Below the pieces are notes generated by a model, which had not been told where the DNA came from, did not search any database, and saw nothing but the letters and a program-made list of their open reading frames with translations. A DNA stretch of 64,000 nucleotides from Paenibacillus pinihumi DSM 23905 = JCM 16419. Its GTDB lineage: Bacteria; Bacillota; Bacilli; Paenibacillales; Paenibacillaceae. Position 1 is the stretch's first letter. The number at the start of each line of letters is the position of its first letter. The position numbers were made by a program, and so were the translations under genes. Positions 3,770-31,160 of the stretch are shown here, in pieces. The DNA is taken from positions 186,001 to 250,000 of the forward strand of contig NZ_AULX01000012.1 in the NCBI RefSeq assembly GCF_000422505.1, written 5' to 3'.

Positions 3770-3822
3770 TGTTCGATGAAGGGTCAGGTTAGAGAATCAA
3801 TATTGTCGAGAGGAGCTTGACA

Positions 3823-12800: not shown

Positions 12801-15800
12801 TGCGGTGTTTACTCTTGCCGATGCACAAGGCACGGAGCTGCAAACGGGCTTGACGACAGGTCAGGACGGCAAGATTCTGGTTGAGAACTTACAGCCGGGC
12901 GGCTACCAATTCATTGAAACGACAGCGCCATTTGGCTATCTGCTATTAACAGCTCCAATTCCATTTACCATTGTAGAGGGACAACAGCGGACACTGGAGC
13001 TTCAAGTATCCAACAAGCAGAAGCCGGGCACAGTTGAATTGACCAAGGTAGATGCAGGTGATTCTAACCTGGTACTTGAGGGTGCTGAATTCAGTCTGAA
13101 GGATATGAACGGCAATGCCATTCATACCGGTCTTGTTACGGACGCGAATGGCAAACTGATTGTTGACGGATTGAAGCCTGGCAATTATCAGTTGGTTGAA
13201 ACTGCAGCTCCAACGGGCTATCTGCTGGATACGACACCGGTTGTATTCGAAATCGTACTCGGCCAGTCCGCAGCAGTTGCTGTTCACAAGACGAACACAC
13301 TGAAGCCAGGTTCAGTTGAACTGACCAAGGTAGACGCGGACGACAATAGCATTGTGCTCCCAGGGGCTGAATTTGAGCTTCGGGATGCAAATGGAATTAC
13401 GTTGCAGAACAATCTTATAACCGATGCAGACGGGAAGCTGGTTGTAAACAATCTGCCGCCGGGCAACTACAGCTTTGTAGAGACCAAGGCACCGGTAGAC
13501 TATGTATTATCTAATCTTGAAATTCCGTTTGCGATTGTTAAAAATCAACAGTCAGCTGCCAAAGTAACAGCAGAGAACGAGCTGATCAATGGTGCATTGG
13601 AAATCAGCAAGATAGACGCACAAGACCACACACTGACACTTCCGGGAGCGGAATTCAAATTGCTGAGTGCAGATGGCACAGAGCTGCAAACGGGACTCAC
13701 AACGAATAGCAGCGGCAAGCTGGTCATTAACAATTTGAAGCCGGGAACCTATCAATTGGCAGAAACGAAGGCTCCAGCAAATTATAAGCTGAACACAAAA
13801 CCTGTCAGCTTCACGATTGTTCGCAATCAGCAGACCATCGAGCAGGTTCAAATTACGAATGAGCTGCTCCGCGGTTCCGCAGAACTGGTGAAGCTGGATG
13901 CTGACGATTCATCGGTGACATTGCAGGGAGCAGAATTTGAGCTTCAAGATGCCGCCGGACGGACTTTACTGACCGATCTGGTGACTGATGCCGATGGCAA
14001 AATTACGGCAGGTAATTTGCTCCCGGGAAATTATCAATTTGTAGAGACCAAAGCACCGTTTGGTTATGAACTGGACGCGACTCCTCAGCCATTCACAATT
14101 GTGAAAAGCCAGGCGGGCGTACTAAAGCTTACGATGACGAATGAGCCATTACCGGGTTCTGCTGTATTGACGAAGGTCGATGCAGACAATACGTCATTGA
14201 AGCTGGAGGGTGCAGAGTTCGACCTTGCAGATGCAACAGGCCATGTGCTAATAAGCAACCTGACGACCGATGGGAATGGTGAAATTACAGTAGCAGGCTT
14301 GAAGCCAGGCTTCTATCGTTTCATTGAGAAGAAGGCGCCGAAGTATTATCAACTGAATGCCGCGCCGATTACATTTGAAATCAAGCTCGGTGAAAACACA
14401 CCTGTGGAGCTTGAGGCAGTCAATCAGCTCATCAAAGGGTCAGTGAAACTGACCAAGGTGGAAAAGGGGCAGGATGCGATTACCTTGGAAGGTGCTGTAT
14501 TCAAGCTGCTAGCGGCTGACAGTACAGTTGTTCAAAATAATCTGGCCACCGATGAAAATGGTGAACTTGTGGTCACAAATCTGAAGCCAGGAACCTATCA
14601 ATTTGTAGAGACCAGGGCGCCAGAGCATTATGAGCTGGATTCCACACCAATCGGATTTACGATTGTGAAGAATGAGACCGCAGGTACAGTCGTTGATGTG
14701 AAAGCTGAAAACGGGCTGATCCGTGGAGATGTTCAGCTTGTGAAGACCGATGCGGATGCAGCGGGTCAAGTCATTGCGGGAGCAGAATTTGAGCTTCGTG
14801 ATGCACAAGGTCAAGTCGTTCAGTCGGGACTGAAGACGGATCGCGAAGGTAAAATTGCCGTTGGAAATCTGCTGCCGGGCAACTACCGGTTCGTAGAAAC
14901 AACAGCAGCACCAGGCTACAGACTGGATACTGCTCCGGTTACCTTCACGATTGACAGAGGATCAAACCAAACGGTTCAGGTAACCAAGCAAAATGAACGC
15001 CTTACAGGCGCGGCAGAACTGACCAAGGTAGACGCTGTCGATCACAGCATTACCCTGCAAGGGGCGATTTTCGAACTGCGCAGTCAGAGCGGGCAGGTAC
15101 TGCGTACCGGACTGACAACGAATAGCGAAGGCAAACTGCTTATTCCGGCTCTGAAGCCGGGCGTATACTCCCTGGTAGAAACTGCAGCGCCGGAGCATTA
15201 CAGCCGTTCCGCTCAGCCGCTGGTATTCACCATTGCGTTTAATCCGCAGCAGGTTGTGGAACTGACGATGGAAAATACCTTGATTAAAGGTGCAGTAGAA
15301 CTGACCAAAGTAGACTCAGAAACTGCGGTACGTGTGCTACTGGGAGCGGAGTTCAAACTTCTGGATGCGCAGGGCGGCCTGCTGCAAGATGAGCTTACGA
15401 CAGATGCAGACGGGAAGCTGTTCATTGGTGATCTTGTACCAGGCAGCTATCAGCTGATCGAGACCAAAGCGCCGGAGCATTATGAGTTGAATGCTGCTCC
15501 GATCAACTTTGAGATTGTGAAGAGTCAGCCGGAAGTGCTGAAGCTCGTATTTGCCAATACGTTAACGCCGGGTGCAGTACAGCTCGTTAAAGTGGATGAA
15601 GACTATCCGAATGAGCTTTTGGCAGGTGCGGTATTTACCCTTGCTGATACACAGGGCAATGAACTGCAAACGGGATTGACGACAGGTCAGGACGGCAAGC
15701 TTCTAATTGAGAACTTACAGCCGGGCAGCTATCTATTTATTGAAACAAAAGCTCCGGAAGGTTATCAGCTGAAGAATTCGCCGGTTCCGTTCACCATTAC

Positions 15801-16740
15801 AGAGGGTCAGCAGAAGACACTGGAGATTGAAGTGTCCAATCAGCAAAAAACAGGCTCTGTACAATTGATCAAGGTGGACACAGACAACCATAACCGGACC
15901 CTAAAGGGCGCTGAGTTCAGTCTGAAGGATATGAGCGGCAATGTCATTCACGCTGGTCTTGTGACGGATCAGGACGGTAAGCTGGCTGTTCATGGACTGA
16001 AGCCGGGCAACTATCAATTCGTAGAGACCAAGGCACCGGCCGGCTATAGCCTAGATCGGACACCAATTGAATTTACAATTCATTTCAATCAGGCTGATAC
16101 ACTGGAATTAACGGTAACCAACAAGTTAAGCACATACTATCCATCAGAACCAAATCCGCCAGGTCCAGGGAACCCTGAGAGCCCTGAGAACCCTGGACAG
16201 GGTGAAAATCCGGACCAGGGACAAAAACCTCCTGGCCCAGATAAGCCTGTCACTGAACATCCAGGCCAGAAGCCTGGAGATAAGCCGGACAATCCTGATG
16301 AGTCAGGAGATGGAGGCACAACGCCGGAGAACCCTGACAGTCCGGATAAACCGGACAGCGGCCACCCGGGCAAACCTGATAACGGCGCTGGTAATCCATC
16401 TGTCAAACCAGACGGCAAAGGTGGTAAAGATGGCGGCAAACAGCCGGGCGATTCTGAAGCTGGCGACTCCGGTAATAATCCGCATGGTACGGAGGAGTCG
16501 GGCAACGGATTGAATGGCACAGATCATTCCCGCGGCGGCACGGGCGGTTCGGAGCACTCGGGAGCAGGAACAAATGGTACCGATCCGGGTAAGGCTAAGC
16601 CTCTGGGCAGTGGCAAGGAGCTTCCAAGAACGGGTGAAGAAGCTTCCTACACGAATGTGATCATGGGATTGCTCGCGATAGCAGCCGGATCATGGTTGTT
16701 ATTCAATAAACGTTCCAGATTAAGAAGAGCAGACAAATAG
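3823..16740 (+). CDS. Giant LPXTG cell-wall adhesin with Cna-B/SpaA-like repeats
   Basis: A 4305-residue secreted stalk protein. Domains in order: signal peptide (1-28, ending VIYA); a short adhesive-type beta domain; a Pro/Glu/Ser-rich acidic segment (about 127-334); a second similar domain (from about 403); several collagen-binding/SpaA-head-like beta domains to about 1250; 30 tandem ~94-residue Cna-B-like repeats (about 1256-4102) with recurring ELTKVD, GAEFEL, LxPGxYxFVETKAP and xNEL motifs; a Pro/Gly-rich wall-spanning linker; and LPRTG at 4267-4271, a membrane helix and a basic tail. The Lys of LTK, Glu of VETKAP and the late Asn are candidates for the intramolecular isopeptide bonds known in this family. 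GTG 3823 is chosen because GAGAGGAG ends 7 bases upstream; the TTG at 3817 is too close. Likely anchored by the preceding sortase. The ligand is unknown. Confidence 0.93.
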   Translation: MGKKFRMTAIALVLLLQSILSPLSVIYAEGAKGIVLNDVQLEDADGNILDAELYPERVIQKDSIFRVKYNWALASTREHEESYMFKLPENLLAVSEQGELLTSDHVAAGSYQIGEDGTVQLTFDAVKPQAPEEAPAGEEVDPPGTTPDNEPDNGVDAEEPSKEGASPEEQPVDDDEKSNPAETPATQPENEANPGGQNAGEADLHTDTDQADPTRQEQKEDKGKVRVLSATETDQTEGSTDDQAPIEDQASAGDLSSTDDLTTEPSSSGSEPDKDQSEAAGEQPSSEQPSHENAAGSEEQPAGDNGSSPPSGNEQSEEQEDAPTGDIDSDEGGVTIPEHPVEVLHGTLEIEVRLTDEAAEQVAEEQAAAEFIFQLTHHAKKIVIPVANDKLKLDKLAGMIEESLLTSVILRDANGNIIDADANPGNRPKRGDALTVEYEWKLENGHGYKAGDQFIFQLPEAFELYNEFDGPLSQYGTYEVSMDGTVVFTFNSLIEVNSNVSGTFKAETKFSEQTIVGSTKQVLEFPLKDGLKKVPIHFQTDIGSEIDKSGLPNKPLNPDQIHWSIAFNKGERSIENAILSEQLPAGLELAAGTVKLYGLTMNLDGTSQKGDLIDEDEYEVVPMPDGSFEIRFKHPISGAYIAEFTTNITDEDQTEFQNKATLKGDGVSDLNTTATVEVGYGKALDKAALVYSATDQTILWSIKYNYNEKLIVKDKAVLTDVFDGSQELVDGSFKLYPITFDRDGKPVRGTEVPGDRYTLDSSAPGGFSFRFHDDVTTAYELVYQTAIQDRVYDDGTVNNTASWDGMDVTTGQPIGQVVLNKRNVSTDYAAKTTNWEIRLNGNHFPMENPVITDSFVNSRLEFLPGSLIITNEAGNPLRLDTDYTLEPVNSYTEGFVIRFLGTFTESYTIRYTTQFDPTVGDAHRYVNKAQLDWVEDGAHMPGKESQAIFEPDTYTKANGFKNGSYNAQTKEITWIIGLNYNKQFIGAPVIQDYYTGEQKMVAGSLKVYELELTGSTDGVVVKNEVDNSDGSVYQVDYNRVDGNGNQGFEFKFNSSITAAYQIEYRTSLSDQIIVDEYHNKAALLDGTTQLTELNASVTVKHGKEYVAKEGVQKGKAVHWKVDINRGQSKVSNVEITDKLTPNQILVENSFKLYQGEVEVDGDVRKGSRLLAKGTDYDLDITTGADGSQSFRLNFKQDIEVPYVLEYQSFINAANGATVGNSVSFKGDHIQEVIKESKQNIVVRFSAGSGSATGEIGNLEITKVDAADNSKVLDGAVFTLYDSTGTIAIRTATTGADGKIVFANLVYDNYVLREDTAPEGYVVGIQDKQTVKLDAPVSPFMIQNKKIIRDVELIKTGEDTHNTGLPGAVFKLQFDAQDGSGYQDVPGKTNLVTDADGKILVQELDPGAYQFIEVTAPQDYLLNTRPITFTIGEKQTEVRRLAPFVNELTPGAVELTKLDQDNRTVALSGAVFNLLNAAKNQTLRSNLTTDASGKLLVEGLKPGTYYLQETQAPQGYLVNAEPIEVVIDRGQTAPKQIAFTNALIRNALELTKADEFDNARLAGAEFELQHRNGTPVTQDQKGKTLPATFITNNNGTFLINDLPNGDYQLVETKAPQHYVRLSAPIEFSITAGTGIVAAPVAQNKLIPGSVELIKEDFYIGNIKLENAEFELQYDNGSPVPGVPVPLTTDSDGKIRVDNLRPGNYQFVEKVAPEHYSLDATPRKFTIVKSQAVALGLSVKNKLKEGSFELTKVDAAYADIKLDGAVFRLEDAAGNTVRSNLQTADGGKLTINTLQPGHYKLIETKAPFGYKLDSTPIAFEIEKSQTVTVQRTKSNVIQPGDVEMVKVDDQDGSIKLEDAKFKLERMDHVTKDWALQQDNLVTNDEGKITVTNLRPGDYRFVETEAPQYYKLLNQPVEFKIDLGQQQIKTVEIKNTLIPGNLELTKEDSADSTRKLPGAAFKIVDNQNREVATNLVTGANGIAISGNLQPGSYYLIETQPPAGYAPNSTPIPFTIDKGTTETVRKQLTVKNEWADGAVELTKVDSDNPGQVLAGAEFNLIDEAGNIIRTGLTTDQYGKLQASGLKAGSYSLVETKAPFGYKPDASPVTFTVTRFKTAAETVQKSNEVLRGAVKLTKVETGNTSEKLEGALFKLADEQGTLVQGNLASDANGELTVTDLKPGKYQFVETAAPAGYQLDATPVQFEIVLGHTGVVLVQKENILTPGSVELTKVDADNNSIVLEDAEFELRDAQNNVLQSGLTTNANGKLVVNNLPPGSYSFVETKAPADYVLSNQPIPFTIVKNQQAIAKVTAQNELINGAVEFTKVDAQDNTLLLPDAEFKLLSASGTELLTGLTTNISGKLVINNLKPGTYQLVETKAPADYKLDVRPVGFTIERNQQAMKQIQIENELLRGSVELTKKDANDLSKVLQGAEFELQDAAGHLVKDGLVTNTDGKISVEELLPGNYQFVETKAPFGYELDATPQPFTIVKSQTGKLELVMTNEPVPGSVALTKVDADNLVLKLEGAEFELQDALGNVLEASLTTDADGEIVVTGLKPGFYQFVEKKAPKYYELNPSQRVFEIELGQSTRLELQAANQLIKGSVKLTKVEKGQDAITLEGAVFKLLAADNTVVQDNLTTDENGELVVVNLKPGTYQFVETKAPEHYELDSTPIGFTIVKNETAGTVIDVKAENELIRGGVELVKTDADAAGQVIAGAVFELRNATGQVIQSGLTTDSEGKITVGNLLPGSYRFVETAAAPGYRLDTAPVIFTIDRGPTQTVQVTKQNERLTGAAELTKVDAVDHSITLQGATFELRSQNGQVLRTGLTTNSEGKLLIPALKPGVYSLVETAAPEHYNRSTQPLVFTIAFNPQQVVELTMENTLIKGGVELTKVDSENAVRVLQGAEFKLLDAQGGLLQGGLATTASGKLFIGDLAPGSYQLIETKAPEHYELNAAPINFEIVKSQPEVLKLVFANTLTPGAVQLIKVDEDHPNELLAGAVFTLADAQGTELQTGLTTGQDGKILVENLQPGGYQFIETTAPFGYLLLTAPIPFTIVEGQQRTLELQVSNKQKPGTVELTKVDAGDSNLVLEGAEFSLKDMNGNAIHTGLVTDANGKLIVDGLKPGNYQLVETAAPTGYLLDTTPVVFEIVLGQSAAVAVHKTNTLKPGSVELTKVDADDNSIVLPGAEFELRDANGITLQNNLITDADGKLVVNNLPPGNYSFVETKAPVDYVLSNLEIPFAIVKNQQSAAKVTAENELINGALEISKIDAQDHTLTLPGAEFKLLSADGTELQTGLTTNSSGKLVINNLKPGTYQLAETKAPANYKLNTKPVSFTIVRNQQTIEQVQITNELLRGSAELVKLDADDSSVTLQGAEFELQDAAGRTLLTDLVTDADGKITAGNLLPGNYQFVETKAPFGYELDATPQPFTIVKSQAGVLKLTMTNEPLPGSAVLTKVDADNTSLKLEGAEFDLADATGHVLISNLTTDGNGEITVAGLKPGFYRFIEKKAPKYYQLNAAPITFEIKLGENTPVELEAVNQLIKGSVKLTKVEKGQDAITLEGAVFKLLAADSTVVQNNLATDENGELVVTNLKPGTYQFVETRAPEHYELDSTPIGFTIVKNETAGTVVDVKAENGLIRGDVQLVKTDADAAGQVIAGAEFELRDAQGQVVQSGLKTDREGKIAVGNLLPGNYRFVETTAAPGYRLDTAPVTFTIDRGSNQTVQVTKQNERLTGAAELTKVDAVDHSITLQGAIFELRSQSGQVLRTGLTTNSEGKLLIPALKPGVYSLVETAAPEHYSRSAQPLVFTIAFNPQQVVELTMENTLIKGAVELTKVDSETAVRVLLGAEFKLLDAQGGLLQDELTTDADGKLFIGDLVPGSYQLIETKAPEHYELNAAPINFEIVKSQPEVLKLVFANTLTPGAVQLVKVDEDYPNELLAGAVFTLADTQGNELQTGLTTGQDGKLLIENLQPGSYLFIETKAPEGYQLKNSPVPFTITEGQQKTLEIEVSNQQKTGSVQLIKVDTDNHNRTLKGAEFSLKDMSGNVIHAGLVTDQDGKLAVHGLKPGNYQFVETKAPAGYSLDRTPIEFTIHFNQADTLELTVTNKLSTYYPSEPNPPGPGNPESPENPGQGENPDQGQKPPGPDKPVTEHPGQKPGDKPDNPDESGDGGTTPENPDSPDKPDSGHPGKPDNGAGNPSVKPDGKGGKDGGKQPGDSEAGDSGNNPHGTEESGNGLNGTDHSRGGTGGSEHSGAGTNGTDPGKAKPLGSGKELPRTGEEASYTNVIMGLLAIAAGSWLLFNKRSRLRRADK
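10483..13308 (+). repeat. Ten-repeat block, copy A (Cna-B units 11-20)
   Basis: The ten units open in the order DADNNSIVL, DAQDNTLLL, DANDLSKVL, DADNLVLKL, EKGQDAITL, DADAAGQVI, DAVDHSITL, DSENAVRVL, DEDHPNELL and DAGDSNLVL. Copy B repeats this order exactly, which indicates a single segmental duplication of about 2.8 kb. Confidence 0.9.
13309..16128 (+). repeat. Ten-repeat block, copy B (Cna-B units 21-30)
   Basis: Each unit is the counterpart of one in copy A (for example DADDNSIVL, DAQDHTLTL, EKGQDAITL, DAVDHSITL, DSETAVRVL, DEDYPNELL). The most alike pairs (15/25, 17/27, 18/28) share long identical DNA stretches; others have drifted. Confidence 0.9.
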
Positions 16741-16907: not shown

Positions 16908-16935
16908 TTGAATTTTTCGGGAATTATAGTATACT
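16908..16935 (+). promoter_or_regulatory. Sigma-A promoter of the cobalamin riboswitch transcript
   Basis: TTGAAT (16908-16913), a 16-base spacer and TATACT (16930-16935) lie about 50 bases before the aptamer. Confidence 0.6.
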
Positions 16936-16984
16936 CTAATTCGGTTGGAAATATTGCACAACTTCATATCCTCCATAATGGTGC

Positions 16985-17170
16985 CTATCTTCCTTGCCTG
17001 TCAGCGGGAAGCCATAGGCTTAATAGGGAAGTCCGGTGCAAAACCGGCGCGGTCCCGCCACTGTAAAGCGGAGCAGGCTGTATACACCCACTGTGCAAAC
17101 GGGAAGGGACGGCCTTAGCGATGACGCTGAGCCAGGAGACCTGCCGCTATGGAACATTACCGCACTCACG
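16985..17170 (+). ncRNA. Cobalamin (adenosylcobalamin-type) riboswitch
   Basis: Two hallmark segments of the class are present: a central block at about 17023-17065 (GGGAAGTCCGGTGCAAAACC, then the GGTCCCGCCACTGTAA portion) and the B12 box GAGCCAGGAGACCTGCC at about 17129-17145. They lie in a ~355-base leader before the first DUF4430 gene. A possible expression-platform hairpin (GACCA/TGGTC at 17202-17225, then TCTTTT) follows the aptamer. It is expected to reduce expression of the downstream genes when cobalamin is abundant. Aptamer edges are approximate. Confidence 0.93.
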
Positions 17171-17339
17171 AGGATGAGAAGGAGGTGAACGGGACTACAT
17201 AGACCACGCAGATATGCTTTGGTCCGGCTGTCTTTTGCATCCGCATCTTTCTTCGCAGAGGAAAGGTGTATTTGTGCATGATGGAGGTTATAGCTTTTCA
17301 GGTTAACAACAACTTTGATTGACGAAAGGAAAGTGAAAT

Positions 17340-18137
17340 ATGAAGACAAATGTATGGAAAAAGACGCTGGCCTTATGGTTTAGTTTATTACTATTAATCT
17401 CCGTCGCCCAGCCTGCTCTTGTAGCGACTGCCAGTGCGAACTCCGCACAAGCAGCAAGCATATCCGTTCAAGTTCGAATTGAAGGATGGAATCAGACAGT
17501 TATTCCGCTGAAGCAGATTGCGATTGCTCCTTATGATATTACCAACGTTGTAGGAAATAACAGTGTGGGCAACTGGCATCAAACGAATTCCACGCCGTTG
17601 GTTATACATGCTATTTTGAAGGCTATGGAACTGGAAGGCTATGATGTAACAGATGAGGACGCTATAGATGTTGGTTACGGTGGTAACTATATCCGTGGAA
17701 TTGCTGGAGAATGGGAGATTGATCAAGGCCCGAATTCCGGTTGGATGTATAAAGTAAATGGTGTACTTCCTTTGTTAGGGGTTGGCCAGCAGACACTGCA
17801 GGCAAATGATCTTTTGGAAGTGTTTTATATTGGTGACTACTCAACTTATGATTTTGGAAAAATAACAGCTTCTTCTACTTCCGTCCGGACAGGCCAAAGT
17901 GTTACTTTCACCGTCTCCGGACAACCATCAAGCTGGGGGACACCGCTTCCGTTTGCTCCAATTTCAGGTGCGACCCTTTCCATTAATGGATCTCCGACTA
18001 CCTATACTACGAACACTAGCGGCCAGGCAACAATTACTTTTAGCACGCCAGGAACTTATAAAATAACTGCTAATAAATTCGGTAGCAATTCCTACAACTT
18101 GGTTCGTCCGATTCCTGTTGTTATTCAAGTGAATTAG
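17340..18137 (+). CDS. Secreted DUF4430 (transcobalamin C-terminal-like) protein
   Basis: A 265-residue exported protein with a signal peptide (MKTNVWKKTLALW...ATASA, residues 1-33). Residues about 40-170 form a DUF4430 domain like the beta domain of transcobalamin/intrinsic factor, with the hallmark GPNSGWMYKVNGVLP and a closing NDLLEVFY strand. A C-terminal Ig-like beta segment (about 178-265) follows. No LPXTG, SLH or lipobox is present, so it is probably released or held by partners. A GAAAGGAAAGTG site precedes the ATG. It is the first gene after the cobalamin riboswitch, and its signal peptide shares KKTLALW with the next protein. Corrinoid binding is inferred from the domain and the riboswitch; other ligands are possible. 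Confidence 0.85.
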   Translation: MKTNVWKKTLALWFSLLLLISVAQPALVATASANSAQAASISVQVRIEGWNQTVIPLKQIAIAPYDITNVVGNNSVGNWHQTNSTPLVIHAILKAMELEGYDVTDEDAIDVGYGGNYIRGIAGEWEIDQGPNSGWMYKVNGVLPLLGVGQQTLQANDLLEVFYIGDYSTYDFGKITASSTSVRTGQSVTFTVSGQPSSWGTPLPFAPISGATLSINGSPTTYTTNTSGQATITFSTPGTYKITANKFGSNSYNLVRPIPVVIQVN

Positions 18138-18163
18138 ACTTTTTTGAGGTCAGTAAGAAGACT

Positions 18164-18203
18164 AACAAGTCACGGTGTAGTTTAGCTGTGACTTGTTCTT
18201 TTC
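18164..18203 (+). terminator. Terminator between the two DUF4430 genes
   Basis: AACAAGTCAC (18164-18173) and GTGACTTGTT (18188-18197) form a 10-bp stem followed by CTTTTC. The downstream gene therefore needs read-through or its own promoter; none is obvious in 18204-18348. Confidence 0.8.
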
Positions 18204-18348
18204 GCACTTTATAAGGCATAATTGAATATTTAGATTGTTTTTATAGTAGGGCCAACAATTCCCTTACAAGAGGATTCATTCATAGATTATTTTGATCTTT
18301 ATATATTAAAGGTTGAATCGTACATATGAGATAAAAGGAGAAAGGATC

Positions 18349-21300
18349 GTGAGTATGAAAGCAACATTTATGAAAAAAACATTAGCGCTATGGTTAACTA
18401 TTCACTTGCTGCTGGCAGCCCTGTATCCTGTGGCAGCTTTTGCTTCAGATTTAAAAACAGACTCGTTGGCATTAAGTAATCTGGAGGGCGAGTCGACGAG
18501 GGCGGCACAGCAAATAGAGCTGCGTACCTGGATGGACAAAGCAGCCGGCTGGATTTATAAAAATCGTAATTTTAAAGTTCAGAACAATTTTAATGATTGG
18601 GATATTGCCGCTCTCTCAAGGGCAGGATACGATTTGCCTGAGGATTACTACCCGGTTCTAGAGAGTTATATTGTAAGCAAAAATGGTATTTTCAATGTGG
18701 CAACCGATGTAGAGAGAATGGTTATTGGCATTACGGCGGCTGGTCAGGACCCGGCAAACATTGCAGGGTTTAATTTTATTGAAGGTATCTACAATCATGC
18801 GAACATCACAAGCCAGCCTGCGAATGCGGCGACTTATGCATTGATCGCGTTGGATTTGAAAAAATCTCCTGTTCCTGATGATGCTTTATGGACAAGAGAG
18901 AAGCTTGTTACACGCCTTTTGAGCTTTCAACAAGTCGATGGAAGCTTCTCGCGAGACGTAGATATAACTGCAATGGCATTGCAGGCATTATCCAACTATA
19001 TGGATGATGATCTCGTGAAGACTAGTGTAGGGCGTGCGATTGCCTGGCTTTCTACAGCGCAACAGGCCAACGGCGGGTTCAAATCCTGGGGGTCAGAAAG
19101 CAGTGAGAGTATTTCTCAGGTTATTATTGCGTTAACAAGCCTCGGGTTAGATCCGTTAGATCCCCAGTTTGTCAAACCAAACGGAAATATGGCGGAAGCT
19201 CTTATCCGTTTTTTTGCTGAAGATGATGGAATTAAACATACTTTAGATGGCAGAAGCAATTATATGGCGACTCATCAGGGGCTTATGGCATTAAGTGCCT
19301 ATGACCGTTTCTTGAATGGCGAAAACAAGTTGTATGATATGACAGATATATTACCTATACAGGAACCTTCGACTCCTGAGGAAGAGGCTGAGCCCCCGAC
19401 TATCCGCGAGCGCATTAACAAGGCTGGCGAGTGGATACTGACGAACCGGAATTTTAAACAACAGGATAATTTTAATGATTGGGATGCAGTCGCTCTTTCC
19501 AGAGCGGGAATTAAAGTTCCGGATGATTACTACCCGGTATTAGAAAGCTATATTGTTGGCAAAAAAGGTTCTTTCCGGAATGCAACGGATGTAGAGCGAA
19601 TGGTTATTGGAATTACCGCTACAGGATTTGACCCTGAAAATATAGCAGGTTATAACTTTATAGCGGGTGTGTATAACCACGACCGTCTCGACAAGCAGGC
19701 GGCGAACGCAACGACCTATGCGTTGATTGCCCTTGACTTAAAAAACTCATTTGTACCTGATGATGCGTTATGGACGAGGGATAAGCTTATTGAGCGCCTG
19801 CTAAGCTATCAGCAGGAAGACGGGGGCTTTGCTCTTAGCAGTGCTGGTGATGTTGATACAACGGCTATGGCTTTACAGGCATTATCAAATTATATCAGTC
19901 GGGATGAGGTCAAGTCGGCAGCTGAGAGCGCAGTTGAATGGCTGTCTAAAGCTCAAACAAGCAATGGCGGTTTTGAATTTGGGAATGTTGAAAGCAGTGA
20001 AAGTTCGGCACAGGTTATTATTGCCCTAACCAGCTTAGGGATTGATCCACTGGATGAAAGGTTTGTAAAAAAAGAAGGTAATGTATTAGACGCCCTTATT
20101 AAACATATTTCTTCTGATGGTGGTTTTGAGCATATAGTGGGACAACAGAGCAATTATATTGCTACTCACCAAGGCTTGATGGCACTTAGTGCCTATGAGC
20201 GTTTTCTAAATGGGCAGAACAAGCTTTATGATATGACGGATATAACAGAACCTGAGGAGCCACAGGAGTCTGTTCTTAATGTAACAGAACAATATGCGAA
20301 TCTGGACCTCGATGCTGAACAAATAGGCACAAAACTTGTGCTTAATATTGGAAATAATGTGGAGACACTGAATATCACACTGCCACAAGACAATAATAGT
20401 CCCGTTTATATTAGACCTTTAAGTACCACACTGCCTGCAATCGAGGTGAACTATGGTACTATTGGCTTGAATATGCCGCCGGTTGAGGTGCTTTCTGAGG
20501 ATTGGAACGGAAAGTTGCTTTTGCCAGTCAAGGCGGTACTGGATTTGGAACCAATTAAAGAGCAAATTGAAAAGCAATCAGGAACAGCAAAAGTTAATGA
20601 AATTAAAACAGCAATCCGTGTTGGCGGCTCTTCTCCTATTAATTTCAATGAGACGGTGACCCTGACTTTCAAAGGACAAGAGAAACTTCTTGCAGGATAT
20701 GTGGACTCTGCTGGGAAGTTTCATAATATACCGAAAGGTCCGGGTAGTTCTCTTAACGAGTATGCGTATGCGGAAAATGGTAATTTAATCGTTAAGACAA
20801 ATCATTTTACAGATTTTATCACCTACAGTCTAAAGGATATTCCGTCCGAACCAGGACCGGGTACTCCATCTCCGGGGGGCGGGAATGGTGGCAGTTCCGC
20901 ATCGGTAAAGCTATCTATCGAAAAAATATCGATCGGTCAAGGTTATATTACTGAACCTGTCAACGTTTCGCTTCAAACCGGCGACACAGCTTTTACTTTA
21001 ATGAAGCGGTATGCTTCGGAGAAAGGAGTCTCTGTTAGTTCAATAGGCTCCGGTGAATCTCTCTATGTTCAAGGTATTGACGGGCTTTATGAATTTGATC
21101 ATGGTCTTTATAGCGGTTGGATGTATTCGGTAAATGACATTTATCCTTCACATAGCGCGGGCACCAAGTATCTGCGGGATGGTGACATCTTAAGATGGAG
21201 ATATACAAAAGATCTGGGGAAGGATATCGGAGGGTATGACTCTGTTATCGGACCTCAAAACAAAGAGGCGCTAAAAAAGAAAATAAACGAGCTTAAAGGT

Positions 21301-22977
21301 CTGACTGAGTCGGATTACACGGCTTCGTCATGGAGTGAGCTGCTAAGAGTAATTTCGTTGGCAGAAAAAGCGGTTAATGAGAGTGATGATCAGAGTCTTG
21401 AACTTGTAAAACTTCTAAAAGAGTTAAGTGCAGCTCAGAAAAAATTAGTTTTAGTGAAAAATAACGGGACCGAGGAAAAGCCTAATCCCTCTAAACCGGA
21501 TATCAAAACGCAATTACCTGAAAAGATTATCGAAACGATCAATAAATCAGCTGATTGGATTTTGAAAAATACGGATTTTGGAACCTATGATCCGTTTCAT
21601 GACTGGGATGTCATGGCTTTAGTACGTTCTGGCAAGGTGGTTCCGGCCATATATCTTACTACACTGGAGAATTACGTACGAGAAGTGGAAGGCAAATTCC
21701 GTAAGGTAACGGACTATGAGCGTACTGTAATGGCGGTAGCTGCAATTGGCAAGGATCCCTCTTCGATCGCGGGATATGATTTTCTTGAAAAGATTTATAA
21801 CAATGAGCGGATGACGGCTCAAGGGTCTAATGGCGTAATCTATGCTCTTATTGCACTCGATGCTAGCGGTGTTATTATACCGTCTAATGCCAAATGGGAT
21901 CGTGAACGTCTAGTCGATTGGCTTCTGACCCAACAAAATGAAGACGGCGGCTTCCCGCTCAGCAAGGAGCAGGATGGTGATAGCGATGTGGATGTCACGG
22001 CAATGGCCCTTCAAGCGCTTGCGGGCTATCAGCAGCAAGATAAGGTAAAGCAAGCTACAGATAAAGCCCTGGAATGGCTGTCCAAGCAGCAATTGCAAAA
22101 CGGCGGCATGAATGCTTGGGGCAAAGAAAACAGTGAAAGTGTATCTCAGGTCATCATAGCCTTGTCTGCACTGGGAATTCCACTGGATGACAAACGTTTC
22201 GTGAAGGAAAAAGGCAACTTGTACAGCAATCTGCTTGGCTTCGTAAATGCGGATGGCGGAATCGCGCATAATGTTGGCGGAGACAGCAACTACATGGCGA
22301 CCCATCAGGGACTGCTGGGCTTGCTTGCCCATAAGCGTTTCTTGCAAAAGGAAAAGGCGCTCTATGACTTTTCGGATATTCGCAAGACCGGTACTGGAGG
22401 CGAAGGGCAGCCAGACACATCCAAGGCATTTAAGGATGAAACGGGTATCTCAACATGGGCAGTCGATGCGGTCCGCAAGGCAGCAGCAGCAGGATTTGTG
22501 CAGGGAACAGGTGCTTCTGCGCAATTTATGCCTCAGCATGAAATGACGCGTGCTGAGTTTGCAGCTGTACTGGTTCGCTATTTGGGATTAAAGATTGAAG
22601 AGCAGGCGGATTCGGTATACACTGATGTAATGAAAGGCCGCTGGTATACAGGATCCATTGTTGCAGCCGGCAAGGCCGGAATTGTTACGGGCTCTGGAAC
22701 AGGCGCTTTCAGGCCGGATGAAGCGATCACGCGTGAGGAAATGGCGGTTATGCTGGGCCGGGCATTAGGCTTTGCTGATGCAAGGCAGACAAATGCCAAG
22801 CTGCCCGCGGATTTGCTGAAGGTATCCCCATGGGCCGCTCCGGCAGTTACTTATCTCTATGAGGCAGGCATTATGGCCGGGGAGAACGGTGCATTTAATC
22901 CGGCAGGACATGTATCCCGCGAACTTGCAGTGTTCATTCTGATGCAATTCTACCAGTCTGATCAACAGGCCGCTTAG
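18349..22977 (+). CDS. SLH-anchored protein with three alpha/alpha-toroid domains and DUF4430 (transcobalamin-like)
   Basis: A 1542-residue surface protein. Domains: signal peptide (to about 32); toroid 1 (57-334) and toroid 2 (351-631), near duplicates; a beta region (about 645-835); DUF4430 (about 852-968, with LYSGWMYSVN and ILRWRYTKDLG); a helical linker; toroid 3 (about 1054-1347); and three SLH domains (about 1358-1542) binding secondary wall polymer. The toroids resemble the prenyltransferase/squalene-cyclase repeat fold but replace the cyclase DxDD motif with DVDITAM, DVDTTAM and DVDVTAM, close to the VDTAAM-type motif of the transcobalamin helical barrel, so ligand binding is likelier than catalysis. 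GTG 18349 lies 8 bases after AAAAGGAG; ATG 18355 is an alternative, and the TTG at 18313 precedes the ribosome site. The combination of folds and the upstream B12 riboswitch suggest a corrinoid-capture protein (inferred). Confidence 0.88.
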   Translation: MSMKATFMKKTLALWLTIHLLLAALYPVAAFASDLKTDSLALSNLEGESTRAAQQIELRTWMDKAAGWIYKNRNFKVQNNFNDWDIAALSRAGYDLPEDYYPVLESYIVSKNGIFNVATDVERMVIGITAAGQDPANIAGFNFIEGIYNHANITSQPANAATYALIALDLKKSPVPDDALWTREKLVTRLLSFQQVDGSFSRDVDITAMALQALSNYMDDDLVKTSVGRAIAWLSTAQQANGGFKSWGSESSESISQVIIALTSLGLDPLDPQFVKPNGNMAEALIRFFAEDDGIKHTLDGRSNYMATHQGLMALSAYDRFLNGENKLYDMTDILPIQEPSTPEEEAEPPTIRERINKAGEWILTNRNFKQQDNFNDWDAVALSRAGIKVPDDYYPVLESYIVGKKGSFRNATDVERMVIGITATGFDPENIAGYNFIAGVYNHDRLDKQAANATTYALIALDLKNSFVPDDALWTRDKLIERLLSYQQEDGGFALSSAGDVDTTAMALQALSNYISRDEVKSAAESAVEWLSKAQTSNGGFEFGNVESSESSAQVIIALTSLGIDPLDERFVKKEGNVLDALIKHISSDGGFEHIVGQQSNYIATHQGLMALSAYERFLNGQNKLYDMTDITEPEEPQESVLNVTEQYANLDLDAEQIGTKLVLNIGNNVETLNITLPQDNNSPVYIRPLSTTLPAIEVNYGTIGLNMPPVEVLSEDWNGKLLLPVKAVLDLEPIKEQIEKQSGTAKVNEIKTAIRVGGSSPINFNETVTLTFKGQEKLLAGYVDSAGKFHNIPKGPGSSLNEYAYAENGNLIVKTNHFTDFITYSLKDIPSEPGPGTPSPGGGNGGSSASVKLSIEKISIGQGYITEPVNVSLQTGDTAFTLMKRYASEKGVSVSSIGSGESLYVQGIDGLYEFDHGLYSGWMYSVNDIYPSHSAGTKYLRDGDILRWRYTKDLGKDIGGYDSVIGPQNKEALKKKINELKGLTESDYTASSWSELLRVISLAEKAVNESDDQSLELVKLLKELSAAQKKLVLVKNNGTEEKPNPSKPDIKTQLPEKIIETINKSADWILKNTDFGTYDPFHDWDVMALVRSGKVVPAIYLTTLENYVREVEGKFRKVTDYERTVMAVAAIGKDPSSIAGYDFLEKIYNNERMTAQGSNGVIYALIALDASGVIIPSNAKWDRERLVDWLLTQQNEDGGFPLSKEQDGDSDVDVTAMALQALAGYQQQDKVKQATDKALEWLSKQQLQNGGMNAWGKENSESVSQVIIALSALGIPLDDKRFVKEKGNLYSNLLGFVNADGGIAHNVGGDSNYMATHQGLLGLLAHKRFLQKEKALYDFSDIRKTGTGGEGQPDTSKAFKDETGISTWAVDAVRKAAAAGFVQGTGASAQFMPQHEMTRAEFAAVLVRYLGLKIEEQADSVYTDVMKGRWYTGSIVAAGKAGIVTGSGTGAFRPDEAITREEMAVMLGRALGFADARQTNAKLPADLLKVSPWAAPAVTYLYEAGIMAGENGAFNPAGHVSRELAVFILMQFYQSDQQAA

Positions 22978-23025
22978 GCGATTAATCTTTTGCGAAATTT
23001 ACAATTATGCAAGTATAGAGTCCAC

Positions 23026-23055
23026 AGGAAAAGAGACGAAATGTCTCTTTTTCCT
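23026..23055 (+). terminator. Hairpin between the SLH protein and the lipoprotein gene
   Basis: AGGAAAAGAGAC (23026-23037) is complementary to the segment at 23043-23055, with a 5-base loop. The T-rich tract is inside the stem and no T run follows, so partial termination or an mRNA-end stabilising role is possible. Confidence 0.55.
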
Positions 23056-23106
23056 GGTTCATCAGGTTTATCGACTACAAACTCAAGAATGGAGGCGACT
23101 ACGAAA

Positions 23107-24117
23107 TTGCATAGAATAGAACGACGCTACCTCCTTCTCACAGCAGTTCTTATCCTGTTGATAGCCATATTGGCAGGCTGCTCTGCCGGACAGCCGGAGC
23201 CATTATCCGGCCGGGACAATCAGGTGACCAATGCTGCTGTTGACGGGCAAGAATTGCAACAGGGCGATGATCAGAGAGGTAATAGCGGCAGCGGGGACCA
23301 GCAGAAGGCAGCTGGCGGCTCTGATACCATGTCTGACGAGCAGCCTGCAAAAGGGACAGGGGATAAGGCTGTAAACACAGAGGAAACCCCGGTTTCGTCT
23401 GGTCAGCAGGCCGTTAACGACTCAAAAGAATCACCGGAGGGGAATAAAGAGGCATTAGTTGGCGGAAAAAACGGCGGCTCCCCTGCACAAGGTGAACCAG
23501 CGAAAGAGGGGGCAAAATCCTCCGAAAATCATACAGGCTCCGCAAGCGGAACCTCCAAGCCGGCAGATCAGTCAGCCCCTGCTTCTTCTGAAAAACCAGC
23601 CTCCGGGACAGTAAAAACGTCCAAGCCTGCAGATTCAACAGCCCCGGCTGACACCAATACAGGCAAGCCAGGGAGCACCAATGCCGGTACTAAGCCGTCC
23701 CAAACTTCCGGCGGCAAAGAAACAAAGCCACCAGCAGCCGTTAAGCAGGATACGGTGCTTTTCACCATAGTTGGCCCTTCCGATGTCGGGGAAATCCTGA
23801 AGACAACCGAGGTCAAGATGGAGAAGGACGATACGGTGCTGGATGTGCTCAAGCGGGTCACGCGCGCGAACAAGATTCATATGGAGTTCCGCGGCAGAGG
23901 CGCAACCGCCTATATTGAAGGCATCGACAATATTTACGAATTTGATTACGGCTCCGGCAGCGGGTGGATGTTCAACATGAACGGCAAATATCCAAACCGC
24001 GGCGCGGGTGTATGGCCAGTCAAGCCGGGAGACAAAATTGAGTGGCGCTATACGGAAGATCTGGGCAAAGACCTTGGCGTAGAGATGGGCGGTTTATGGG
24101 ATGGAAAAGAAGAATAA
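23107..24117 (+). CDS. DUF4430 lipoprotein, candidate substrate-binding partner of the ECF transporter
   Basis: A 336-residue lipoprotein: hydrophobic signal segment with lipobox LAGC, a long Ser/Gly/Thr/Pro/Lys-rich flexible tether (about residues 20-210), then a DUF4430 domain (about 216-320) with DDTVLDVLK, YIEGIDNIYEF, SGSGWMFNMNGKYP and GDKIEWRYTEDLGKDLG. This pattern closely parallels the transcobalamin beta domain. The TTG at 23107 is preferred because GGAGG lies 11 bases upstream; ATG 23089 is an alternative with a poor ribosome site. The end overlaps ecfT by 17 bases, indicating translational coupling. It likely sits on the outer face of the membrane and delivers ligand to the S component (inferred). 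Confidence 0.85.
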   Translation: MHRIERRYLLLTAVLILLIAILAGCSAGQPEPLSGRDNQVTNAAVDGQELQQGDDQRGNSGSGDQQKAAGGSDTMSDEQPAKGTGDKAVNTEETPVSSGQQAVNDSKESPEGNKEALVGGKNGGSPAQGEPAKEGAKSSENHTGSASGTSKPADQSAPASSEKPASGTVKTSKPADSTAPADTNTGKPGSTNAGTKPSQTSGGKETKPPAAVKQDTVLFTIVGPSDVGEILKTTEVKMEKDDTVLDVLKRVTRANKIHMEFRGRGATAYIEGIDNIYEFDYGSGSGWMFNMNGKYPNRGAGVWPVKPGDKIEWRYTEDLGKDLGVEMGGLWDGKEE

Positions 24118-25006
24118 ATGGCCCGGCGGCTTCTATTCGCTTCATCCGGCCATAAGCTTCGTTTATTTTGTTTTCGTTTTTGGAGCGGCAGTCATGCTGA
24201 AGCATCCGCTCTATTTGTTGACAGTGCTGGCGGTGGCGATTGCCATTGCCATTTTGCAAGATGGAGGGCGCGGACTTGTTAAGCCGCTGCCCTATTACCT
24301 GCTGCTTGCGCTCATCATTTTTATCAGCAATCCGCTGCTAACCAGCCGTGGCAGGACAATATTGTTCTATTTCCGGGATTTGCCGGTTACGCTTGAGGCG
24401 ATTGCCTATGGAGCGTTGTTTGCAATGTCGCTGCTCGCTGTGCTTATCGGCTTTATCGGCTACAACAGCATTGTTACCCCGAACCGGTTCCTGTATTTGT
24501 TTGCGAGGTTTGCGCCGCGCACTGTATTTGTCATCACCGTAGCGATGCGGTTTGTCCCTTTGCTGAAGCGCCGGATTCAAGAGATTATCCGGGTGCAGAA
24601 ATCACAGGGATATTTTTTATATAAAAAGAAGAAATGGCTGCAAGCTAAAGAAGCCATGGAGACGATGCACACACTTGTCAGCTGGTCGCTGGAAGAAGCA
24701 CTTCAGACGGGTATGTCGATGCGCTCCAGGGGTTACGGGCTTGGCAAACGAAGCTCGGCAATCGTCTACCGGATGGAGCGGCGGGACTGGCAGGTGCTCG
24801 GCTGGATGGCTGCTACTGGGCTGTTGACCCTGGTTGGAGCCATGCTTGGCTGCGGACGCTATTCTGTATATCCCAAGCTGCTGCCCCCGGATGCTTCCTA
24901 TTTTACATTATTGCATTACGCCTGCTTTGCCGGCTTTTTACTGGTGCCGGTTGTAATGGATGTCAGAGAGGTGATGAGATGGCGCACTATCAGATCCAGG
25001 ATGTAA
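24101..25006 (+). CDS. ecfT: ECF transporter transmembrane component EcfT
   Basis: A 301-residue integral membrane protein with several hydrophobic segments (for example SFVYFVFVFGAAVML and YYLLLALIIFISNPLLTS). The cytoplasmic coupling region contains RRIQEIIRVQKSQGYF and EALQTGMSMRSRGYG, the Arg-Gly motif helices by which EcfT contacts the ATPases. It joins the S component to the A/A' pair. It overlaps the lipoprotein gene by 17 bases and the ATPase gene by 28 bases. Confidence 0.92.
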   Translation: MEKKNKWPGGFYSLHPAISFVYFVFVFGAAVMLKHPLYLLTVLAVAIAIAILQDGGRGLVKPLPYYLLLALIIFISNPLLTSRGRTILFYFRDLPVTLEAIAYGALFAMSLLAVLIGFIGYNSIVTPNRFLYLFARFAPRTVFVITVAMRFVPLLKRRIQEIIRVQKSQGYFLYKKKKWLQAKEAMETMHTLVSWSLEEALQTGMSMRSRGYGLGKRSSAIVYRMERRDWQVLGWMAATGLLTLVGAMLGCGRYSVYPKLLPPDASYFTLLHYACFAGFLLVPVVMDVREVMRWRTIRSRM

Positions 25007-26724
25007 CTTTTACGTTCCCTGAGCAGGAAACTTCTTCACTGAGCGGTATATCGATGGACATCGCAGAGGGGGAGTTCGTCGTTCTCTGCGGTTCGACCGG
25101 TTCGGGCAAGACCACCTTCATCCGGCACCTGAAGCGTGAAATCTGGCCGGAGGGCAAGCGGACCGGAGTCTTCCGATATGATGGCTTGCCGCTTGAAGAG
25201 CTTCCGCCACAGCGGGCAGCCTCAGAGATTGGCATGGTGTTTCAGGATCCGGAAGCCCAAATCGTAATGGGGACGGTGGAACAAGAGCTTGCTTTTGGAC
25301 TGGAAAATCTGGGCCTGCCCCCTGCCGTAATCCAGCGCCGGATGGCGGAGATGGTCTCCTTTCTGGGCATGGAAGGATGGCTTAGACAGTCTGTGCATGA
25401 GCTTTCCGGCGGGCAAAAACAGCTGCTTAATCTGGCTTCAGTGCTGATGTTGAGGCCGAAGGTACTGTTGCTGGATGAGCCTACTGCCCAGCTCGATCCG
25501 ATTGCAGCCAAGGAGTTTCTTCAAGTGCTGCACCGTCTTAATCAGGAGTTGTCTTTAACCGTTGTTATTGCAGAGCACCGACTGGAAGATGTTTTTCCAC
25601 TCGCGACACAGGTGTGCCTGTTCGACCACGGCCGGTTGAAATATGCCGGTTCTGCACGCCAGGTTATTGCAAATGTGTGGAGTAGTGGCGATGAGGAAGC
25701 AAGGGCTTTCCTTCCGGCTGTCAGCAGAATCGCATTGTTGTGGCCGGGTCAGCACTACGGGACCATTCCGCTTACCGTTAAGGAAGGAAAGACATGGATG
25801 GCGCAAATGGCAGGGGAGCATAGCGACCAAGCAACAACTGGAGATGATGATGTCCTTCCACTTTCGGCAATTACGCATGCCACAAGCAGAGAGCAGCTTC
25901 GCATTAGCAATTCTTCTCCTGCAAAGGACATTATGCTCGCGTGCCGGTCGCTCTTTTTTCAATATGAGAAGGACTCGCCCTTCCTGCTTCACGGCTGCTC
26001 CTTTGAGGTTCGCAAAGGGGAGATGATGGCGCTAATGGGGGGGAATGGAGCGGGGAAATCGACATTGCTGCGCGTGCTTGCCCATCTGCTTAAGCCACAA
26101 CGGGGCCAGGTAGAATTGGACGGAAAGCCGTTGTCCAAGTGGAAGGAGAAGGAGCGTATCGCCCGCATTGGCTATCTCGCGCAGAATCCGCTGCTTTATT
26201 TTAACCGGGATACAGTTCGGGAACTGCTGGAGGAACGGCTGCGTCGGCTTGACTTGCCTGAAGCGGAGCAGACACGACGTCTGGAGGAGATGGTATCACT
26301 GTTCGGACTGGAGCCGATACTGAACCATCATCCTTACGATATTAGCGGCGGCCAACAGCAAAAGACCGCTCTGGCGCTTGTTTTGCTCGCTGATCCTGAA
26401 CTGCTGCTGCTGGACGAACCGACCAAAGGGCTTGACCCGTATCAGAAGGAAACGTTTGCGGAGCTGTTAAAGAAATGGCTTCAAGGCAGCCGTACCATCT
26501 TGATGGTTAGCCATGATGTGGAGTTTGCTGCCCGCCATGCAACCCGGAGCGCGATGCTGTTTAACGGAACAGTGATCGGACCGGAAGATACAGCCTCCTT
26601 CTTTCAGCAAAATTATTTCTACACAACGGTAATCCAGCGTGTGGCTGGGGAGCATTGGCCAAAGCTGGTTACGGAAGAGGATGTGATTAACAGGTGGCAG
26701 GCATTCGCCGGGCGCTCTATTTAA
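24979..26724 (+). CDS. Fused ECF transporter ATPase (EcfA-EcfA')
   Basis: A 581-residue protein with two ABC ATPase domains in one chain. Domain 1 has Walker A GSTGSGKTT, signature LSGGQKQ and Walker B LLLDEPTAQLD. Domain 2 (from about residue 320) has GGNGAGKST, ISGGQQQK, LLLDEPTKGLD and the switch His in SHDVEF. An intact set of motifs in both halves suggests both sites bind ATP. Such fused A/A' subunits occur in dedicated (group I-like) ECF cassettes, which fits an S component encoded beside it rather than a shared module. The start overlaps ecfT by 28 bases and the end overlaps the S component gene by 31. Confidence 0.95.
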   Translation: MAHYQIQDVTFTFPEQETSSLSGISMDIAEGEFVVLCGSTGSGKTTFIRHLKREIWPEGKRTGVFRYDGLPLEELPPQRAASEIGMVFQDPEAQIVMGTVEQELAFGLENLGLPPAVIQRRMAEMVSFLGMEGWLRQSVHELSGGQKQLLNLASVLMLRPKVLLLDEPTAQLDPIAAKEFLQVLHRLNQELSLTVVIAEHRLEDVFPLATQVCLFDHGRLKYAGSARQVIANVWSSGDEEARAFLPAVSRIALLWPGQHYGTIPLTVKEGKTWMAQMAGEHSDQATTGDDDVLPLSAITHATSREQLRISNSSPAKDIMLACRSLFFQYEKDSPFLLHGCSFEVRKGEMMALMGGNGAGKSTLLRVLAHLLKPQRGQVELDGKPLSKWKEKERIARIGYLAQNPLLYFNRDTVRELLEERLRRLDLPEAEQTRRLEEMVSLFGLEPILNHHPYDISGGQQQKTALALVLLADPELLLLDEPTKGLDPYQKETFAELLKKWLQGSRTILMVSHDVEFAARHATRSAMLFNGTVIGPEDTASFFQQNYFYTTVIQRVAGEHWPKLVTEEDVINRWQAFAGRSI

Positions 26725-27386
26725 GCGGTTTTGCGATCGCTTTTGTGCTGCTCATTGCGGCATTGTGGCGGGAGGAATATTACCTTCCGCTGAGTATCAT
26801 CATGATTCTGGCTGTAATGATCCCCTTCTGGGTCCGCTTCGAGCGCAAGTCATTTCATGCCGAAAGCATGGTCATGATTGCGATGATGGCGGCAATTGCC
26901 GCTGTGGGAAGAGTCCCGTTCGTATCGCTCCCCAGTGTCCAGCCGACCTCCTTTGTTATCATTGTCAGCGCGCTGGTGCTGGGGCCGGAGGTAGGCTTTA
27001 TTGTCGGCAGTGTCGCCGCAGTGGTATCCAATTTGTTTCTGGGGCAGGGGCCGTGGACGCCCTGGCAAATGTTTTGCTGGGGCATGATGGGCTTTAGCGC
27101 CGGACTGCTGCGCCATCAGCTTTGGATGGGGACGCGCTTTGGCAGAGTGGCGTTTGGCTTTGTCTGGGGTTTTCTGTTCGGCTGGATTATGAACATCTGG
27201 TATATCATCGGCTATTTTGGAGAGATGACCTGGCATACCTTTGCCATGGCTTATGCGGCGAGCTTTTATTTTGACCTGGCACACGCGCTGAGCAATGTCT
27301 TTTTCCTGGGACTCTTTGCCGCACGATGGATCAAGATTTTGACCCGGATGAAGGTCAAGTACGGGGTGCTTCAAGAGGATTCGTGA
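26694..27386 (+). CDS. ECF transporter S component, probable corrinoid-specific
   Basis: A 230-residue membrane protein. Two N-terminal hydrophobic segments (YLSGFAIAFVLLIAALW and YLPLSIIMILAVMIPFWV) precede an S-component core with AAIAAVGRVPF, PSVQPTSFVIIVSALVLGP, GSVAAVVSNLFLGQGPWTPWQM and late helices. This is the pattern of the ECF_trnsprt (riboflavin/cobalamin-type) S family; CbrT/CblS-like proteins are the B12 members predicted by others. The GTG at 26694 overlaps the ATPase gene by 31 bases. Substrate is inferred from the riboswitch and the DUF4430 proteins upstream; sequence alone does not fix it. It is the last gene of the accessory block, and a sigma-F promoter follows within 25 bases. 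Confidence 0.85.
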   Translation: MAGIRRALYLSGFAIAFVLLIAALWREEYYLPLSIIMILAVMIPFWVRFERKSFHAESMVMIAMMAAIAAVGRVPFVSLPSVQPTSFVIIVSALVLGPEVGFIVGSVAAVVSNLFLGQGPWTPWQMFCWGMMGFSAGLLRHQLWMGTRFGRVAFGFVWGFLFGWIMNIWYIIGYFGEMTWHTFAMAYAASFYFDLAHALSNVFFLGLFAARWIKILTRMKVKYGVLQEDS

Positions 27387-31044: not shown

Positions 31045-31120
31045 ACAGATCCGGTGTAACTGGCGACGAGAGTGGGTAACCACGATGGAGCACCGGAATA
31101 TACGGCCGGTCGCCTGGGCA
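31045..31120 (+). ncRNA. ZTP (pfl) riboswitch aptamer
   Basis: The pfl signature is present: CCGGTG (31051-31056) pairing with CACCGG (31091-31096) around TAACTGGCG, the GTGGGTAACCAC hairpin and GGAGC, then the pseudoknot strand GGTCGCCTGGGCA (about 31108-31120). ZTP/ZMP signals shortage of 10-formyl-tetrahydrofolate, and the class usually controls purine and one-carbon genes such as glyA, which is third in the downstream gene set. Confidence 0.9.
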
Positions 31121-31122
31121 AA

Positions 31123-31160
31123 GAGCTTGCGTGTGCATTCTGCACGCTTGCTCTTTTTCG
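31123..31160 (+). terminator. Expression-platform terminator of the ZTP riboswitch
   Basis: GAGC-TT-GCGTG (31123-31133) pairs with CACGC-TT-GCTC (31143-31153) and is followed by TTTTTC. The stem starts two bases after the aptamer pseudoknot, the usual arrangement in which ligand binding prevents termination. Confidence 0.85.

Follow-up and report, generated by a model that had tools for sequence, protein, structure and literature searches.

An operon of Paenibacillus pinihumi DSM 23905, lying in a 64,000-nucleotide stretch of contig NZ_AULX01000012.1 (positions 186,001 to 250,000, here called the window), joins a cobalamin riboswitch and three exported proteins with the DUF4430 domain (PF14478) to an energy-coupling factor (ECF) importer, the S component of which resembles that of the vitamin B12 transporter ECF-CbrT. 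This operon is probably a B12-repressed system for corrinoid scavenging, combining capture at the cell surface, presentation by a lipoprotein and import by a CbrT-type ECF transporter. What is observed are the parts, their order, the riboswitch, the kinship of the S component and the co-occurrence of these elements across genomes, together with a transcobalamin-like fold in models of related wall proteins.

Operons of this kind were foreseen by Burroughs, Balaji, Iyer and Aravind in 2007, who described a transcobalamin-like clade of the SLBB superfamily in low-GC Gram-positive bacteria (PMC1796856; statements on this article refer to the portions of it drawn on here). Its surface proteins carry a signal peptide and combine an alpha/alpha-toroid with a transcobalamin-type beta-grasp domain in either order, accompanied by a second extracellular paralogue. 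The operons also encoded a CbiO-like ATPase and a CbiQ-like membrane protein. B12 scavenging was proposed, as was the acquisition of transcobalamin proteins by animals from low-GC Gram-positives. The window has both the exported DUF4430 and toroid proteins and an operon with an ECF ATPase and an EcfT/CbiQ-like protein, placing it in this clade. It differs in that the lipoprotein is the conserved partner and in that three differently located DUF4430 proteins share one operon; furthermore, the B12 riboswitch and the CbrT S component are not named in those portions of the 2007 article, and their link is quantified here. The core idea of the original prediction for this locus, which had been presented as new, had thus already been put forward by these authors as a prediction, and a proteomics table for L. 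rhamnosus already lists an “additional lipoprotein component of putative cobalamin ECF transporter” (PMC9963975). As a corrinoid uptake operon, the window operon is well supported. It is a further member of the type predicted in 2007, an arrangement that occurs widely and in close association with a known B12 importer.

Parts of the operon and its CbrT-like importer

The layout read earlier from the sequence, consisting of a riboswitch, then a secreted, a wall-anchored and a lipid-anchored DUF4430 protein, and finally overlapping genes for EcfT, a fused EcfA and an S component, is borne out (Table 1). All three DUF4430 matches exceed Pfam's cut-off, and signal-peptide-like N termini are visible in the sequences of the exported proteins. 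The lipoprotein stop (24117) lies beyond the ecfT start (24101), the ecfT stop (25006) beyond the ecfA start (24979), and the ecfA stop (26724) beyond the start of the S component (26694). The lipoprotein had been placed at 23107; its identity stands, and its start may be a TTG at 22990, an ATG at 23089 or a TTG at 23107.

Table 1. Features of the operon, in window coordinates.
Feature	Position	Strand	Basis
Cobalamin riboswitch aptamer RF00174	16962-17162	+	109.1 bits, E 2e-26
Secreted DUF4430 protein, 265 amino acids	17340-18137	+	signal peptide; PF14478 49.3 bits
Wall-anchored protein, 1542 amino acids	18349-22977	+	PF00432 x3; PF14478 49.4 bits; PF00395 x3
DUF4430 lipoprotein	22990-24117 (start uncertain)	+	lipobox ILAGC; PF14478 68.9 bits
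ecfT, transmembrane coupling subunit of the ECF module, divergent	24101-25006	+	matches solved EcfT chains
ecfA, two fused ATP-binding cassette (ABC) ATPases	24979-26724	+	PF00005 x2; TIGR04520
CbrT-like S component (predicted corrinoid-specificity subunit)	26694-27386	+	phmmer/profile match to 6fnp_A

The wall-anchored protein consists of two toroids, an intervening region, the DUF4430 domain, a helical linker, a third toroid and three S-layer homology (SLH) stretches that match the S-layer protein Sap, and the toroids reported for it earlier are recovered as three PF00432 stretches (E 1.2e-27). In the lipoprotein, the lipobox is followed by a long low-complexity spacer, with DUF4430 at the C terminus, at 23806-24090. 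The secreted protein has an immunoglobulin-like C-terminal region with weak Big_3_5/CarboxypepD_reg matches below cut-off, and no anchor was seen in it. Its counterparts among the loci of the host's family examined are confined to two close relatives (L041 and L042), and it is therefore a local addition. On another contig, the host encodes a protein with a toroid, four DUF4430-like domains, another toroid and three SLH stretches (L010, 7003-12258, + strand), near which no cobalamin riboswitch was found.

The S component matches 6fnp_A with an E value of 2.4e-14 (phmmer), and the profile of its family finds the same chain among PDB entries with E 3.7e-24, the runner-up among solved S components being at 0.007. 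6FNP is the B12 transporter ECF-CbrT, with CbrT as its S component, which transports cobalamin and cobinamide (PMC5997447); CbrTUV is covered in reviews, one of which enters CbrUVT as “cobyrinate diamide uptake” (PMC8123684). CbrT is the only close solved relative, and the S component thus does not fall in a non-corrinoid family, an outcome on which the original prediction had depended. EcfA exceeds the cut-off of TIGR04520 and comprises two fused ABC ATPases that are closest to ECF ATPases, and EcfT aligns with the chains of solved EcfT proteins by phmmer (E 4e-4), with no Pfam match found for it. The nearest solved S component, the EcfT protein, the two ATPase domains and the B12-linked context together place the importer among the predicted CbrT-type corrinoid ECF transporters. 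Homology to CbrT extends across the whole 174-residue CbrT core. In contrast to ECF-CbrT, the operon encodes a fused EcfA, an S protein that is longer at the N terminus by approximately 50 residues, and accompanying DUF4430 proteins, and unlike the CbrT of L. delbrueckii, which uses a shared module, the S component has ecfT and ecfA in its own operon. In one relative, an ECF ATPase pair and a CbrT-like S component are apparently fused in a single 895-residue frame (L067, 7137-9824).

Conservation of the cassette across genomes

Loci of relatives were obtained from a search for the S component across the host's family (Paenibacillaceae) and read with profile hidden Markov models, and a wider sample comprised 80 named loci from other taxa. 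The order of wall protein, DUF4430 lipoprotein, ecfT, ecfA and S component recurs across the family, with the riboswitch upstream in 38 of 39 complete loci, a count that leaves out L059, which is cut by a contig end; the sole exception is L078, where none was found in 16.7 kb. DUF4430 beside a CbrT-like S component under a B12 riboswitch is thus a recurrent neighbourhood. The cassette is found in Paenibacillus, Cohnella, Bacillus-type genera, Sporosarcina, Oceanobacillus, lactobacilli, Desulfosporosinus, Moorella and a metagenome-assembled genome (MAG) of Armatimonadota, its order being kept in Bacillales, Lactobacillales, Clostridia and that MAG. A gene encoding only DUF4430 adjoins ecfT in 105/117 loci (at least five loci were counted twice), and in nearly all loci ecfT is placed between the lipoprotein and ecfA genes. 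Exceptions to this adjacency are an intervening toroid gene in some clostridial and MAG loci and a DUF4430 gene situated elsewhere in several lactobacilli; two loci have none.

Genome-wide counts point in the same direction. Among 150 genomes of the host's family, 62 have both DUF4430 and a CbrT-like S component, three only DUF4430 (all weak matches), two only the S component (one partial, one with stops) and 83 neither. For 249 Bacillota genomes, the corresponding numbers are 73, 4, 2 and 170. Fisher's P is tiny, but the genomes are related, and the counts themselves are the evidence. The two are found on the same contig within 8 kb in 64/75 cases, and several genomes carry further DUF4430 genes at some distance from the S locus, some of them preceded within a few kb by a separate B12 riboswitch (for example in G013, G055, G095, G098 and G047). 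This near-perfect co-occurrence, the riboswitch and the CbrT-type S component indicate corrinoids as the likely substrate class, in line with what had been proposed for the locus.

The conserved unit is the riboswitch, the DUF4430 lipoprotein, the ECF module and the CbrT-like S component. In closed or nearly closed genomes such as G080 and G060, the single DUF4430 match is a lipoprotein beside ecfT, directly under the riboswitch, and the toroid wall protein, common as it is, is missing from the operon's neighbourhood in some lineages. This suggests that the lipoprotein and ECF complex form the core and that the wall protein is accessory, since some genomes show the lipoprotein and ECF only, although these may encode a toroid-only protein at another site. 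With the secreted protein restricted to close kin, the three-protein relay originally envisaged does not hold as a conserved unit. At a Secundilactobacillus kimchicus locus (L122, 5562-7242), DUF4430 and toroid are two separate neighbouring genes ahead of ecfT, which suggests that each half can act as a protein of its own. The opposite extreme is a wall protein of Calidifontibacillus oryziterrae (L103, from 408, + strand) with ten DUF4430-like copies and two toroids. One Bacillota family has a DUF4430 protein of 100-150 residues approximately 18 bases from a divergent S component (G210:C52:5670-6367, G248:C80:11699-12396, G311:C3:95453-96153), and the ligand of this pair may differ.

Kinship with animal B12 carriers

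In some wall proteins of relatives (L110, L053, L054 and L060), a toroid is followed after approximately 20 residues by DUF4430 and then by SLH stretches, which is the transcobalamin layout. A model of the L110 toroid and DUF4430 pair (predicted local distance difference test score, pLDDT, 90.9) was compared with the PDB by Foldseek. The 13 best matches are all transcobalamin, haptocorrin or intrinsic factor (rat, bovine and human), with E values from 2.9e-9 to 3e-6 and alignments across both domains. The L110 toroid alone superposes on transcobalamin with a root-mean-square deviation (rmsd) of approximately 3.5 Å over 240 residues; using VIA-align, cyclases rank above transcobalamin for the toroid alone, and judged from these models the toroid fold is not diagnostic by itself. 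A role of the toroids as enzymes was considered and rejected, with the cyclase DxDD motif and the CGEQ thioester motif each present in 0/139 toroids. For the window wall protein, the part modelled (20947-22416, DUF4430, linker and toroid 3 only; pLDDT 87.5) has prenyltransferases as its leading matches and transcobalamin at approximately 1e-4. Its toroid 2 matches the mammalian Pfam family Cobalamin_bind with 18.8 bits, below the cut-off of 25. The lipoprotein DUF4430 profile finds the C-terminal domain of haptocorrin weakly in a PDB scan (E 0.07) and with 83 % in a pairwise hhalign comparison. An Asp of the DVDxTAM motif was aligned to human Asp176 by hhalign with a probability of only 1 %. 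The human transcobalamin fragment used in comparing residues matched 2bb5_A along its full 120 residues. A library of viral structures gave no significant match.

The models thus support a kinship of the toroid and DUF4430 pair with the mammalian B12 carriers, which appears clear by fold in relatives with the same domain order and weaker for the window protein; for the window's toroid 3, no more than a generic toroid fold emerged from the model. The relatives' wall proteins share with the animal proteins the order of toroid and beta-grasp, with similar lengths and spacing. In contrast, the bacterial proteins are SLH- or lipid-anchored, often have repeated DUF4430 domains or the reversed order, and show approximately 15 % sequence identity. 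The modules of the wall protein are the same two building blocks as those of the B12 carriers of human blood and stomach. Should DUF4430 proteins bind corrinoid, these animal carriers would gain a functional counterpart in a sizeable fraction of Bacillota (DUF4430 is found in 77/249 sampled genomes), and the animal acquisition proposed in 2007 would become biochemically testable. No experimental study of DUF4430 proteins or of extramembrane B12 capture in Gram-positives was found in the open-access literature searched, and such work may have appeared elsewhere.

Proposed mechanism and its alternatives

In the proposed mechanism, low internal coenzyme B12 would leave the riboswitch open and the operon expressed. 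The toroid and DUF4430 beta-grasp surface proteins would then capture cobamides at the S-layer, as their homology and context suggest, and the membrane-tethered lipoprotein would hold or receive the corrinoid by the membrane and present it to the CbrT-like S component. The EcfT/EcfA module would drive import by the S component, and the imported cobamide would serve MetH. B12 capture at the surface ahead of a dedicated importer is analogous, with no homology implied, to that by the BtuG surface lipoproteins of gut Bacteroides (PMC6143338), which, unlike the window operon, belong to the outer-membrane BtuB system of Gram-negatives. A more specific version, in which a dedicated extracytoplasmic binding lipoprotein takes over corrinoid from the wall toroids, the two perhaps forming an intermolecular transcobalamin-like sandwich, before passing it to the CbrT-like S component, is tentative and somewhat short of an even chance. 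L122 and other loci, which split toroid and DUF4430 onto separate genes, would fit a sandwich between two proteins. If true, lipoprotein-assisted ECF import would be a variant using a binding protein, against the usual ECF rule, and would surprise specialists.

The genome of the host, checked one protein family at a time, encodes MetH with the motif DVHDIGKN. It has two cobalamin riboswitches, that of the operon and one 5' of metE, the gene for the B12-independent methionine synthase. CobS was not found in this genome, control genomes being positive. With MetH encoded, metE under a riboswitch and CobS lacking, the simplest reading is that the host cannot complete cobamides and would need complete ones, using MetE when B12 is short and MetH when B12 is imported. 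Between the aptamer and the first gene, no terminator-like site was found on the + strand, and folding of 17120-17360 gave nothing beyond shuffles (z -0.8).

Several observations weigh against scavenging by a transcobalamin-like relay. The two-domain superposition of the ligand-free L110 model on transcobalamin fails (rmsd approximately 18 Å for the whole chain), a value that ligand-free modelling can yield. In the window protein, DUF4430 precedes toroid 3 with a helical linker in between, and for this toroid the matches to squalene cyclases and prenyltransferases equal or exceed that to transcobalamin. By sequence, the toroid and DUF4430 profile found only cyclases, alpha-2-macroglobulin and prenyltransferases in the PDB, and no transcobalamin; hhalign gave the toroid profile 1 % against transcobalamin. 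The solved ECF-CbrT transports in vitro without any binding lipoprotein (PMC5997447). Lastly, CobS is kept in 46/64 S-positive genomes of the host's family and the cassette is not associated with its loss, so that a reading restricted to auxotrophs was dropped, and the 2007 remark that owners of such proteins usually lack key B12 synthesis enzymes (PMC1796856) fails in this family.

The main rival, which is unlikely, holds that the lipoprotein is a non-binding structural or gating accessory like CbiN/NikN of the metal ECF importers, with the S component taking the corrinoid directly and the wall proteins only raising its local concentration. The adjacency of its gene to ecfT, reaching an overlap in the window, would suit such a subunit, but CbiN-like subunits are small membrane proteins, whereas the lipoprotein bears DUF4430, which recurs in the wall proteins, on a spacer that is long and flexible. 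ECF importers normally require no binding protein, and ECF-CbrT works without one (PMC5997447), although the DUF4430-type domain contacts B12 in the animal carriers (PMC1796856). Less likely still is import of a precursor (cobinamide or cobyrinate diamide) in place of complete cobamides. Acceptance of cobinamide by CbrT (PMC5997447), the label given to CbrUVT (PMC8123684) and the retention of CobS in many relatives are consistent with this notion, but a host without CobS could not finish a precursor, and its B12 user is MetH.

A different ligand altogether is quite improbable: the surface proteins would bind glycans or glycoproteins of the cell wall, or be toroid-class enzymes, and share the operon through expression under B12 scarcity. 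Multi-domain SLH proteins are often adhesive, and in fold the toroids strongly resemble glycoside-processing enzymes and terpene cyclases; against this, DUF4430 hardly occurs outside genomes that encode a CbrT-like S component, and B12 carriers are the best structural matches of the adjacent toroid and DUF4430 pair. That an ordinary ECF importer for another vitamin stands by chance or mis-annotation beside unrelated surface proteins is barely credible. Pfam by itself assigns the S component no further than to an ECF S family of generic or riboflavin type, but the CbrT profile match is more than 20 orders of magnitude better than that of the next solved S component, and the conservation of gene order from Bacillales to the Armatimonadota MAG contradicts chance clustering.

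The spoIIR gene downstream and an adhesin-like gene upstream appear to lie outside the operon unit. The latter (3817-16740, + strand), just 5' of the riboswitch, encodes a repeat-rich protein of 4307 residues that has an LPRTG sortase-type motif at its C terminus and contains dozens of SpaA/prealbumin-like repeats. A ZMP/ZTP riboswitch (RF01750, 55.8 bits) is located at 31046-31126 on the + strand of the window.

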